A stretch of 64,000 nt of DNA from an uncultured Prochlorococcus sp. (lineage in GTDB: Bacteria; Cyanobacteriota; Cyanobacteriia; PCC-6307; Cyanobiaceae), in assembly GCA_902527105.1 (NCBI GenBank), contig CABZNT010000003.1, positions 1-64,000 of the forward strand, written 5' to 3'. Under the pieces are notes generated by a model. That model had not been told where the DNA came from. It worked only from the letters and a program-made list of their open reading frames with translations, and did not search any database. Shown in pieces: positions 2,432-55,772 of this stretch (positions within the stretch are counted from its first letter, which is position 1; the number at the start of each line of letters is the position of its first letter). Made by a program: the position numbers and the translations under genes.

Positions 2432-2548
2432 ATGAAAATTTTAAAGAAAAAAAGACTTGGAACATTTGAGGTTTATTTTATTTTTTTAAGCTGTATTTAT
2501 GTAGGATTTATAGGTTATAAATCTCTAATAAATATTTTATTTACTTGA
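2432..2548 (+). CDS. Tiny membrane protein (38 aa), unknown
   Basis: ATG at 2432, TGA at 2546-2548. A basic N-terminus (MKILKKKRLG) precedes one long hydrophobic helix of about 22 residues. Its last five codons lie inside the first copy of a 37-bp tandem duplication, and it converges on the small reverse-strand gene at 2588-2722. Confidence 0.5.
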   Translation: MKILKKKRLGTFEVYFIFLSCIYVGFIGYKSLINILFT

Positions 2549-2607
2549 GATTAATTAATTCTTTGGAATGATTTTATTTACTTGAGATTAATTAATTCTT
2601 TGGAATG
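2534..2607. repeat. Perfect 37-bp tandem duplication (two copies)
   Basis: Copy 1 is 2534-2570 and copy 2 is 2571-2607; both read ATTTTATTTACTTGAGATTA onward and the match runs on four bases past copy 2. Copy 1 carries the 3' end and stop of the forward small gene; copy 2 carries the 3' end and stop of the convergent reverse gene. Each copy also holds a relic of the other gene's end. Confidence 0.95.
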
Positions 2608-2722
2608 ATTTAATCAACTTACCTCCATCTTGATCATCATCATCGTTTGACGAGAAAAAAATAAAAAATATCCCAAGAGAAGCTATAGATAATGAAATTG
2701 ACAATACAGAAAGCTCGTCCAT
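2588..2722 (-). CDS. Tiny membrane protein with DxDxDG-like acidic loop (44 aa)
   Basis: ATG at 2722, TAA at 2588-2590. Residues 4-24 are a hydrophobic helix, followed directly by an acidic segment NDDDDQDGG (residues 26-34) containing a DxDxDG pattern (D28, D30, D32, G33), then a basic tail. The same DDQDGGxLI string recurs in the forward gene at 3857-4036, about 1.2 kb away, so the two appear to be related. DxDxDG resembles calcium-binding loops; that role is inference only. Confidence 0.6.
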   Translation of the reverse strand: MDELSVLSISLSIASLGIFFIFFSSNDDDDQDGGKLIKSFQRIN

Positions 2723-2839
2723 AAATTTTAATTTTTTTTATGATAAACCAAAAAAAATAAAAGACAGTAAACAAATACACATTCTTGCAAATATAAATTT
2801 CCTTTATTTGTAAAATGAAAAAAATATTCGAATTATTTC

Positions 2840-3115
2840 GTGAAAGTTATAATCACTTCCCCTTGTAGTGCAAGCACAATAATTCAGTATGGAATAAAAA
2901 GTTGGCCTATTTGGGAATGTGAGCCAAGTAAATTTCAATGGAATTACGATGATAAAGAAATTTGCTTAATTATTGAAGGCCAAGCGAAAATTAGTACGAA
3001 AAACGGTGACATTTATTTTATTAAAGCTGGAGATCTTGTTGAGTTTCCTGCTGGACTTTACTGCGAATGGGAAATAACTAAAAGTATTAAAAAACATTAT
3101 CGATTGGGCAGCTAG
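2840..3115 (+). CDS. Small cupin-domain protein (cupin_3 / DUF861 type)
   Basis: 91 residues, a single minimal cupin barrel. Typical pieces are WPIWECEPSKFQW, EICLIIEGQAKI, and GDLVEFPAGLYCEWEI, matching the DUF861/cupin_3 pattern. Metal-binding histidines of classic cupins are largely absent, as often in this subfamily. Substrate unknown. The start is GTG at 2840; there is no in-frame ATG nearby. Confidence 0.8.
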   Translation: MKVIITSPCSASTIIQYGIKSWPIWECEPSKFQWNYDDKEICLIIEGQAKISTKNGDIYFIKAGDLVEFPAGLYCEWEITKSIKKHYRLGS

Positions 3116-3207
3116 ATTTAAGAAATAAGATTTTTTCTTTCTTTACTGCTAAGTCAATGCAGATAAAATATGGTTAATAAATAATTTTCAAAAGGGGAAC
3201 TAATATT

Positions 3208-3378
3208 ATGCCTTTTACTGATCAAGAATATTTTGAGGTTATTGAAAAAAACGAAATAGTAAAAAAAGCTTTTGAAAATATTAAGCAAATTTGCATAGAT
3301 TTGCAAAAACAAACAAATTGTCCTGAAGAGGATCTAAAAGATTTTCTTGAGTTTATTTCTAAACAATGGAATAAGTAA
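3208..3378 (+). CDS. Small acidic helical protein (56 aa), unknown
   Basis: ATG at 3208 with a good Shine-Dalgarno AAGGGGA about 10 bases upstream, stop TAA at 3376. The product is charged and predicted helical, with two cysteines (C29, C38) about nine residues apart. No recognisable family. Confidence 0.6.
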   Translation: MPFTDQEYFEVIEKNEIVKKAFENIKQICIDLQKQTNCPEEDLKDFLEFISKQWNK

Positions 3379-3443
3379 TAATTAAAAAGCCTTTCAGAAT
3401 ACTAGATTTAAAATCTTTATTTAGTTTTCTCACAGAATCAGCT

Positions 3444-3575
3444 CTAATCTAATTCCTTTTTTGGTTTTGTATTGATACTGGAAGTTCCCTTAGCGGCAGA
3501 AACAAAGAAAAAGAAGCCTACAATTCCTGATATACCAAATATCGCAGCCAAAGGATCAAAAGTGAAAGAAAACAT
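3444..3575 (-). CDS. Tiny membrane protein (43 aa), unknown
   Basis: Starting at ATG 3575 the product begins MFSFTFDPLAAIFGISGIVG, with one hydrophobic helix (about residues 9-27) and a short basic tail ending PKKELD. An in-frame ATG at 3626 would add 17 poorly structured residues; I prefer 3575 because the compact protein begins there. Function unknown. Confidence 0.6.
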   Translation of the reverse strand: MFSFTFDPLAAIFGISGIVGFFFFVSAAKGTSSINTKPKKELD

Positions 3576-3856
3576 AGAATTTATAAAATCAAGATAAATA
3601 ATAGTTTTTGAATCAAAATTGTACAATTATTGTTAAGTATAAAAAATAACAATAACGCGATTCATTATGTCATTATTAGTTTCTTATAAGGTTCAACAAA
3701 ATTATTATTCACATTCATATTGAAGAATAAAAATATCAATAAAAACTAAAGATTTATTCGTGCGACAGAGAAAAGTTTAAAAAATATTTATAAAAATATT
3801 GAATGACACTTTCCGGAGGATCCACAATTGTTGTTTCTTTAGATTAATATCTGACC

Positions 3857-4036
3857 ATGACAGATTTTTTCTCATCATCTTCAGCAGTAAGTCCTTTTAC
3901 AGCAATATTATGGTGTCTTTATCCAATAGCTGTACTTGTAATCATTGAGTTACTTCTAGGGGGTGGATTCGATGATGATAACGATGACCAAGATGGCGGA
4001 ATGCTTATACCTGCTTACTCTAGATCTGACGTTTGA
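3857..4036 (+). CDS. Small membrane protein with acidic DxDxDG-like loop (59 aa)
   Basis: ATG at 3857, TGA at 4034. One hydrophobic helix (about 13-34) is followed by GGGFDDDNDDQDGGMLIP (35-52). The segment NDDQDG fits a calcium-loop-like [DN]xDxDG pattern. It shares DDQDGGxLI with the product of 2588-2722. The hydrophobic helix plus acidic loop suggests a membrane-anchored peptide with a metal-binding or complex-docking tail; function unknown. Confidence 0.7.
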   Translation: MTDFFSSSSAVSPFTAILWCLYPIAVLVIIELLLGGGFDDDNDDQDGGMLIPAYSRSDV

Positions 4037-4081
4037 AATTTCTTAGACTTTAAATTATAATCTCTGAAAAATTTCAGTAAA

Positions 4082-4222
4082 TTGCTTGACAATATTGATA
4101 CAACTCATATTTCCCTAATCACACTTACCATTCTTATCGTTTCCTCTCTATCTTGGCTTGTCTTGAGAACCCTTAAAGAAGGTAGAAAGGCTTTAACAGA
4201 TATAAACAAGGATAAATCGTAA
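4082..4222 (+). CDS. Tiny membrane protein (46 aa), unknown
   Basis: TTG at 4082 to TAA at 4222. One hydrophobic helix (about residues 11-29) is followed by a basic, helical tail (RTLKEGRKALTDINKDKS). There is no ATG in frame, so the start is uncertain, but the helix-plus-charged-tail composition argues for a real gene. Confidence 0.45.
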   Translation: MLDNIDTTHISLITLTILIVSSLSWLVLRTLKEGRKALTDINKDKS

Positions 4223-41786: not shown

Positions 41787-42206
41787 ATGGAAAAAAGCAT
41801 TGCATTATTTGGTACAAGTGCAGATCCACCTACCATTGGACATAAAAAGATACTTGAAGAATTATCCAAAATATATTCTTTTACAATTGGTTATGTTAGT
41901 AACAACCCCAACAAAAATCACAAAGAAGATATCTCAATTCGTAGCCATTTATTAAAAACTCTTATTGAAGATTTAGATAATCCTAAAATTTTATTTAATC
42001 AAAGTGTTAGTAGCCAATGGGCATTAGAGTCAATTAAAAAATGTAAAAGAATTTATGAATTAAATAGTCTCGATTTTGTTATTGGGAGCGATTTAATTAA
42101 AGATATTTTCTACTGGAAAAATTTTGATAAAATTACTGATGAGGTTAGTTTTTTAGTAATTTTAAGAGAGGGATATCCTATTGAATCAAGTACTCTAAAA
42201 TGTTAG
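41787..42206 (+). CDS. nadD: Nicotinate-nucleotide adenylyltransferase, N-terminal part (frameshifted)
   Basis: 139 residues. It has the nucleotidyltransferase start IALFGTSADPPTIGHKKIL with the TxGH motif, then SLDFVIGSDLIKDIFYWKNF, the NadD signature. The frame stops early at TAG 42204. The missing C-terminal part lies directly downstream in the -1 frame (42200-42364). Joined at the AAAA run 42197-42200 the two give 192 residues, the normal NadD length. NadD makes deamido-NAD, the substrate of nadE just downstream. Confidence 0.9.
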   Translation: MEKSIALFGTSADPPTIGHKKILEELSKIYSFTIGYVSNNPNKNHKEDISIRSHLLKTLIEDLDNPKILFNQSVSSQWALESIKKCKRIYELNSLDFVIGSDLIKDIFYWKNFDKITDEVSFLVILREGYPIESSTLKC

Positions 42207-42364
42207 AAACTTATAAAGTGAAATTTACGATTTCAACCATAAAAATCCCAAACATTTCAAGTTCTAAGCTCAGGTCAAACTTTAATTATTCTAATTTACC
42301 AACTTCATTAATAGATATTGTTAAAAAGAATAATTTATATGAATCTACTAAATTAGTTGAATGA
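42200..42364 (+). CDS. nadD: NadD C-terminal part in the -1 frame
   Basis: 54 codons from ATG 42200 to TGA 42362. It reads VKFTISTIKIPNISSSKLRS and SLIDIVKKNNLYES, the conserved NadD C-terminus (ISSTxIR motif and terminal xNxLY). The ATG overlaps the end of the N-terminal part and the stop overlaps the nadE start by ATGA. It could be joined by ribosomal -1 slippage on CTA AAA T, made as a separate polypeptide, or reflect a one-base deletion or sequencing error in the A-run. Confidence 0.85.
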   Translation: MLETYKVKFTISTIKIPNISSSKLRSNFNYSNLPTSLIDIVKKNNLYESTKLVE

Positions 42365-44058
42365 AGTTTTTACTTGCTCAAATTAATCCAGTTGTTGGTG
42401 ATTTAGAGGGCAATGCAAAGAAAATACTTTGTACCGCTTCAAAAGCTAGCTCAACTTCTGCTGATTTCGTTCTTACTCCAGAATTATCACTATGGGGATA
42501 TCCAGCAAACGACCTACTTCTAAAAAAAAATTTAATCAAAAATCAATATCAAATTCTTGACCAATTAGCCCTAGATATTAATAAAAAATATGGAAACTTA
42601 AGTATCACAGTAGGGATAGCTGAGATAATAAATGATTCTTTTTTCCCAAATCTTTATAATTCTATTGCATTGCTCGAACGCGGTGAGTGGAAAATAATTG
42701 CTCGTAAAATTATTCTTCCTACCTATGAAGTATTTGATGAGAAAAGATACTTTAGATCAGAAGAAAAAGTTTCCGTATTAACAAAAGAAATTAATAATAA
42801 AACTTGGCGACTTGGCTTTACTATATGTGAGGATTTATGGGTTAACAGAAATATAGAAGGTAGAGGAATTCATAAAAAGAATCCTATTTTTGATTTAAAG
42901 AAAAAAAAAGTTGATATCTTAGTTAACTTATCCGCCTCCCCATATACCTTCAAAAAGTTAGAGCTAAGATCCAAAGTTTCGAGTTATGCTGCACAATATC
43001 TTAAAGTACCGCTGATATATGTTAACCAGATTGGAGCAAATGATAATTTAATTTTTGATGGAAATAGTTTTATTCTTGATAAGAATGGATCTAAAATTAA
43101 GCAATTAAAATCTTTTTCAGAAGACCTCTCCAGTTGGGACATTGAGCAAACAAAACCTCAAAAAAATGAATTTGAAAAATCTGAGATGTCATCAATTTTT
43201 GATGCATTAGTCCTTGGTGTTAGGGATTATGCTCAAAAATGCGGTTTTAAAACAGCTTTAATTGGACTAAGTGGTGGCATTGATTCGGCACTAGTTTCAG
43301 CAATTGCGACAGCTGCTCTTGGCGGTAATAATATTTATTGCATCTCAATGCCCTCTAAGTGGAGCTCATCTCATTCAAAGAGTGATGCGAAAGATTTAGC
43401 GAGAAGATTAAAAATAAATTTTAATAGCATCCCAATTGAAAACCTAATGAATTCTTTTGAAGAATCTTTTATGAAAACCATATCTTTCGAGATGGCTGAA
43501 ATAACAAATCAAAATATTCAATCAAGGATCAGAGGAACACTTCTGATGGCTTTAGCAAATCAAGAAAAGCATTTATTACTTTCAACAGGAAATAAATCAG
43601 AGCTAGCTGTAGGATATTGCACACTTTATGGTGATATGAATGGGGGATTATCTGTAATTGGTGATTTATATAAAACTAATGTTTTTAAATTATGCAATTG
43701 GCTTGATAGTGAAGAATCAATAAATCATAGAAAGTCATATATGTTAGATACTAATGTAAATATAATTGGGGAAAATATCCGCACGAAAGCTCCAAGTGCC
43801 GAATTAGGTCCTGATCAATTAGATACTGATTCTCTCCCGCCTTATTCTATTTTAGATAATATTCTTAAAGGAATTATTGAAGAAAAAAAAGATTTACTAC
43901 AGCTAGAAGAAGATGGTTATAAAAAAGATTTAATTTTAAAAATTATCTCACTCATAAAAAAAGCGGAATTCAAAAGAAAGCAGGCTCCTCCAATCCTAAA
44001 ACTGAGCAGCCAATCATTAGGAAGCGACTGGAGAGTTCCCATAGCAATATCTTATTAA
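42361..44058 (+). CDS. nadE: Glutamine-dependent NAD+ synthetase
   Basis: 565 residues. The N-terminal nitrilase-type glutaminase has the Glu-Lys-Cys triad E41 (TPELSLWGYPA), K116 (RKIILPTYEVF) and C156 (GFTICEDLW). The C-terminal synthetase has the P-loop SGGIDS (304-309), STGNKSELAVGYCTLYGDM and the KAPSAEL segment. It converts deamido-NAD to NAD using ammonia channelled from glutamine. It overlaps nadD by 4 bp and the convergent DUF3326 gene by 4 bp. Confidence 0.95.
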   Translation: MKFLLAQINPVVGDLEGNAKKILCTASKASSTSADFVLTPELSLWGYPANDLLLKKNLIKNQYQILDQLALDINKKYGNLSITVGIAEIINDSFFPNLYNSIALLERGEWKIIARKIILPTYEVFDEKRYFRSEEKVSVLTKEINNKTWRLGFTICEDLWVNRNIEGRGIHKKNPIFDLKKKKVDILVNLSASPYTFKKLELRSKVSSYAAQYLKVPLIYVNQIGANDNLIFDGNSFILDKNGSKIKQLKSFSEDLSSWDIEQTKPQKNEFEKSEMSSIFDALVLGVRDYAQKCGFKTALIGLSGGIDSALVSAIATAALGGNNIYCISMPSKWSSSHSKSDAKDLARRLKINFNSIPIENLMNSFEESFMKTISFEMAEITNQNIQSRIRGTLLMALANQEKHLLLSTGNKSELAVGYCTLYGDMNGGLSVIGDLYKTNVFKLCNWLDSEESINHRKSYMLDTNVNIIGENIRTKAPSAELGPDQLDTDSLPPYSILDNILKGIIEEKKDLLQLEEDGYKKDLILKIISLIKKAEFKRKQAPPILKLSSQSLGSDWRVPIAISY

Positions 44059-55337: not shown

Positions 55338-55460
55338 TTTTAGTAGAACTTTTTTACTAAACCTATATAAAAACTATATATAAAGATAAAAATTCGCAAA
55401 AGTATCAACAAATCTAAGTATTACAATTGACTAAGTCAAAAGCTGTTAAATCTTATTTTT

Positions 55461-55503
55461 GTATCGATCGTAACATTCATAATGTCTGTCAAAAGGGTTA
55501 TAT
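55461..55503 (+). promoter_or_regulatory. Probable NtcA-dependent promoter of the glnB unit
   Basis: GTATCGATCGTAAC (55461-55474) matches the NtcA palindrome GTA-N8-TAC with one mismatch in the right arm. TTATAT (55498-55503) follows after 23 bases, the spacing of NtcA-activated promoters. The first gene downstream starts at 55527. NtcA is the cyanobacterial nitrogen-control activator. Confidence 0.55.
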
Positions 55504-55526
55504 GTGTTTAGTTCAATTAAAAATTA

Positions 55527-55772
55527 ATGGACATTTGTCTAATAACTATCGATAACAACTTAAATAAATCCCTTCAACCAAAAAGTGCGATAGGAATGTT
55601 ATGGCTTCAAACACACTTTGATAATGATCAGTGGGAAGCTTTGTCAAATAGTACAGTAATAATTTCTGAAGAAAATTCCCAATTATTAATTGAAGACGCC
55701 ACTAATGCAGGCCTTAATATTAAATGTTTTTCTGATATTTCAATGTTGGATGTTTTCCCAAAAAACAATTAA
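55527..55772 (+). CDS. Small hypothetical protein upstream of glnB (81 aa)
   Basis: ATG 55527. Reads LQPKSAIGMLWLQTHFDNDQ, WEALSNSTVIISEENSQLL, then FSDISMLDVF. Soluble, alpha/beta composition. It lies 24 bp before glnB and downstream of the NtcA-like promoter, so it is probably co-transcribed and nitrogen-regulated. Family not recognised. Confidence 0.75.
   Translation: MDICLITIDNNLNKSLQPKSAIGMLWLQTHFDNDQWEALSNSTVIISEENSQLLIEDATNAGLNIKCFSDISMLDVFPKNN

Follow-up and report, generated by a model that had tools for sequence, protein, structure and literature searches.

A putative single-base deletion splits nadD in one draft Prochlorococcus genome and is probably of technical origin

Results

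Organization of the nadD–nadE locus

The stretch of DNA that was analysed (the window) comprises 64,000 nucleotides of a contig from an uncultured Prochlorococcus. On its forward strand, two overlapping reading frames are followed directly by nadE. The first frame (41787–42206) encodes 139 residues, starting at the ATG at 41787 and ending at the TAG at 42204–42206. The second (42200–42364) lies in the −1 frame; its 54 codons start at the ATG at 42200, include the motif ISSSKLR and run to a TGA at 42362–42364, which overlaps the nadE start codon at 42361 (ATGA). nadE itself (42361–44058, forward strand), encoding NAD synthase, is intact and yields a protein of 565 aa (NF010588, E 3.3e-190).

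A profile search with the NCBIfam nadD model NF000842 identified the two frames as consecutive parts of the model. The upstream frame covers model positions 2–137 (E 9.1e-58, 195 bits) and the downstream frame positions 138–189 of 191 (E 5.9e-12, 45.6 bits), indicating one gene cut in two rather than a chance open reading frame. A match to the whole model is obtained only by combining the two frames, and the 578 bases of the window nadD do not hold one continuous frame of about 190 codons, as the TAG at 42204 interrupts it. This agrees with the initial annotation, which had placed the end of the N-terminal NadD frame at that TAG and the C-terminus in the −1 frame from the ATG at 42200. The gene resembles the NadD family in its near end-to-end cover of the model, its T-I-G-H motif and the nadE gene directly downstream, but differs in being split by a missing base. 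The protein is a predicted nicotinate-nucleotide adenylyltransferase NadD (NF000842, PRK00071.2-1), and judged from the sequence, the split nadD of the assembled window is a single gene broken by one missing base.

A private deletion at the nadD junction

Named genome contigs yielded 121 relatives, of which the best 80 were compared with the locus. All 80 read through the junction in one frame, with products of 192 aa in 76, 191 aa in one and 188 aa in three; their nadD usually spans 579 bases, or 192 codons (76 of 80). The 192 residues that had been proposed as the normal length of the joined product are thus those of most relatives, and the alignment that had been suggested as a check finds nadD unbroken at the junction in every one of these 80. 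In a tblastn search, the window nadD was the sole broken copy among 81 loci (window included). A genus-wide search with the 578-base stretch gave matches in 167 of 200 genomes; among the matches listed that cover query positions 1–578, most are 579 bases long.

The deletion maps to positions 42195–42202 (forward strand), where the window has eight bases (CTAAAATG) and the relatives have nine. Of the 73 readable relatives, 55 have CTTAAAATG at the junction, 4 have CTAAAAATG and 14 have other variants. The remaining 7 of the 80 loci were excluded from this codon count because their anchor motif differs, although their segments are still intact through the junction. The third base of the codon preceding the A run is T in 68 of the 73, which makes a T of the Leu codon a likelier candidate for the base missing from the window than any base of the A run. 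The earlier proposal that one A was lost therefore holds as to a single lost base but probably not as to its identity. Over the locus, the nearest of the 80 relatives is 95.4% identical (L062) and carries the TT form at the junction. A tree did not settle the place of the window within its set of 24 rows.

A search for the 31-base string containing the deletion, with up to 3 mismatches allowed, gave a hit in 1 of 266 genus genomes, and this one is the window's own; a divergent genome that shares the deletion but has more than 3 mismatches would escape this search. As far as these comparisons reach, the deletion is private and single-base, and its confinement to one draft assembly is what a technical indel would show.

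A shared hot spot was considered and rejected: of six genus genomes with odd nadD lengths that were inspected, none breaks at the site seen in the window. The 3′ end of nadD is variable, as seen in the relatives with 188 aa (3 of 80) and 191 aa (one), and in four other genus genomes (L114, L116, L117 and L118) a base is absent only near the 3′ end, the product still being about 189 aa. The last NadD residues may be dispensable. Another of the six, L115 (G148:C35:467–1244), has an independent one-base deletion in its nadD, at an A run close to codon 42. No close nadD match was found in the phage records searched.

Reading of the junction as a start–stop overlap or a slippery site

The initial annotation had offered two ways in which the locus might still yield a functional enzyme. 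In one, the two halves of 139 and 54 aa are made separately by termination-reinitiation at the overlapping ATG and TAG (42200–42206) and then assemble. An ATG overlapping a stop is a layout that permits reinitiation. In the intact relatives, however, the bases of the overlap ATGTTAG belong to in-frame codons, typically ATG TTA GAA (Met-Leu-Glu), which in the window are read out of register by one base. Both the apparent start and the apparent stop are thus conserved codons shifted by one base, which makes the start–stop layout incidental, and the search of 266 genus genomes turned up no other case of it. We consider a split NadD exceedingly improbable.

The other proposal was that the ribosome slips at CTA AAA T. 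Programmed or compensatory −1 frameshifting at CTA AAA TGT would restore full-length NadD: AAA is able to re-pair one base back within the A run, the shift yields the L-K-M-L that is usual in relatives, and the C-terminal frame is well conserved. A canonical −1 slippery site is an X XXY YYZ heptamer in the zero frame; slippage of one tRNA on A AAA can be envisaged but would be weak. The site in the window, T CTA AAA TGT, is no such heptamer, as CTA cannot re-pair at TCT. The downstream segment 42201–42300 folds with a z-score of 0.02, and 95 of 200 shuffled sequences fold as well or better, in a test that covered pseudoknot-free folding. The layout is also not conserved, since it occurs in 1 of 266 genomes (up to 3 mismatches) and all 80 named relatives read in one frame. 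Compared with compensatory or programmed −1 frameshifting (PMC5009743), the window shares the −1 continuation behind an A run but lacks the canonical heptamer, a stimulatory structure that could be found, and conservation. No literature linking NadD with ribosomal frameshifting was found, as judged by titles and the openings of abstracts. Slippage as the source of NadD appears to us extremely improbable, and even taken together with split halves, such a special mechanism would be a very unlikely explanation.

Isolated frameshifts in this genome and its relatives

The window belongs to a draft genome of 39 contigs with a completeness of 88.18. Its own 147,556-base contig was compared with the relative G170, where 107 of 129 G170 genes were comparable (36,146 codons) and the other 22, having no usable match, were left out. 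Four genes were flagged, three of them because of in-frame stops that lie either ahead of a likely start or at residue 235 of 237. This leaves one confirmed frameshift in the 107 genes, that of nadD, or about one per 108 kb. In the reverse run, 6 of 110 genes of the window's contig were flagged in G170.

General decay of the region was also considered. Over the window and 20 kb downstream, 3 of 55 genes were flagged with G170 as the reference, 1 of 39 with G066, 2 of 37 with G020 and 1 of 37 with G118, and only nadD was flagged with all four, on which grounds this possibility was rejected. The other flags concern a gene at 64073 (G170), which was explained and has no frameshift, a 100-aa open reading frame (G170) and a 115-aa open reading frame at 55427–55769 (G020). 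Reverse and relative-to-relative comparisons flagged 0–6 genes each (0 of 37 to 6 of 59), with gene lists that may include spurious open reading frames.

One-base breaks also occur next to nadD in other genomes. Of 79 nadE loci, counting the intact one of the window, 3 are broken, each time in a poly-A run, indicating that one-base breaks form part of the background in these draft genomes. The three belong to named draft relatives: L053 (nadE at 2432–4128), L084 (1957–3653) and L102 (3576–5274). Among the neighbouring genes, one of 413 aa was flagged in 3 of 81 loci, where it ends 11–14 residues short, which we read as end variation, and one of 327 aa in none of 77.

For a single-cell workflow applied to Prochlorococcus and Synechococcus, a published benchmark gives a mean of 3.0 indels per 100 kb over three cultures (PMC6122165). 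In a second source, P. marinus single-cell assemblies tended toward the fewest indels (PMC5519541), so the benchmark value may overstate the rate. The draft state of the genome and its many single-cell relatives suggest that it, too, is of single-cell amplified origin. If it was made by such a workflow, one unexplained indel per approximately 100 kb fits the expectation.

NAD pathway genes and the search for a second NadD

A search of the window's own genome with the PF01467 profile gave three places only: the broken nadD, a 157-aa protein that we take to be CoaD-like, and a 466-aa protein on contig C23, presumably a kinase-cytidylyltransferase fusion of the HldE/RfaE type, both assigned by eye. 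The TIGR00482 model found no match at its cut-off in the same genome; the best hit was the broken nadD (63 bits), and the other two weak matches both lie within the CoaD-like gene. A second NadD copy was therefore rejected as a candidate, with the caveat that the genome is 88% complete. Ten near-complete relatives have only 2–3 PF01467 matches each, which argues against a copy hidden in the missing part.

A third match to this CTP_transf_like family was observed in 3 of these 10 relatives (G170:C4:149240–149608, G082:C2:1092392–1092763 and G015:C1:1167085–1167396), within frames of 517, 457 and a striking 13,676 residues.

nadA, nadC and nadE are kept in the window's genome. With these genes retained, and with the two other PF01467 proteins presumably CoaD-like and a kinase-cytidylyltransferase fusion, loss of the enzyme should be severe. 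E. coli nadD is reported, and nadE described, as essential in PMC1249556, which also mentions an earlier survey where transposons had inserted into the E. coli nadD gene. In the same work, an E. coli NadD mutant with its last ten residues changed had almost no activity, although the authors regard part of this result as inconclusive because of instability. For Synechocystis, a second route to NAD that starts from nicotinamide has been put forward (PMC7133116). We found no literature on the Prochlorococcus nicotinate-nucleotide adenylyltransferase.

Sequence divergence of the two nadD parts

At the protein level, the C-terminal part shares 98% identity with that of G170. Pairwise comparison with 18 relatives gave 1–5 non-synonymous differences in the C-terminal part and 7–15 in the N-terminal part. 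Substitutions private to the window affect 6 codons, 3 of them non-synonymous and one of these 3 behind the break, which is too few to judge selection.

Discussion

The missing base of nadD is, in our assessment, probably a technical error of amplification, sequencing or assembly. The living organism would then carry an ordinary 192-codon nadD followed by nadE, and one base would have been dropped at the CTT AAA ATG junction during whole-genome amplification, sequencing or assembly. We infer this cause; the observations themselves are that a single base is deleted, that no other genome searched shares the deletion, that nadD is unbroken in the relatives and that no further NadD turned up in the sequence searched. 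It corresponds to the third option of the initial annotation, a base lost in the strain or the assembly, which accords with a lesion seen in one draft genome while all 80 named relatives are intact. Technical indels of single-cell or draft assemblies offer a parallel in the single-base change, the restriction to one 39-contig draft and a rate compatible with the benchmark. The length of the run is a point against a technical error: the nadE cases sit in long poly-A runs, whereas the window deletion lies in a short one (TT or A), which is less typical than a long homopolymer.

It is also possible, but unlikely, that the deletion is real, recent and confined to the cell that was sampled or to its immediate lineage. 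In that case NadD would be lost or made only by rare slippage, and the cell would be doomed or would live on residual enzyme. The restriction of the allele to this genome (1 of 266) is consistent with such an event, as is the closeness of both halves to the relatives, including the C-terminal identity to G170. Private breaks occur elsewhere too, in nadE (3 of 79 loci) and at the A run of the L115 nadD, and these may themselves be technical. The essentiality reported for E. coli NadD (PMC1249556) speaks against it, as do the retained de novo pathway genes in a genome where no substitute was found. In addition, one would expect a random cell to carry a new lethal indel far less often than technical indels arise at the rate given in PMC6122165. 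That no second NadD was found also makes a long-lived lesion unlikely; the lesion is either absent from the living genome or very recent. A real deletion, fixed in the lineage and offset by ribosomes that slip back one base in the A run or by two chains that associate into NadD, is highly improbable.

Our results call for caution: draft Prochlorococcus genomes carry a background of isolated frameshifts in essential genes, and these should be compared with relatives before any special mechanism is invoked. A deletion that proved real and tolerated would mean that translation rescues an essential enzyme in a free-living bacterium, here a cyanobacterium.
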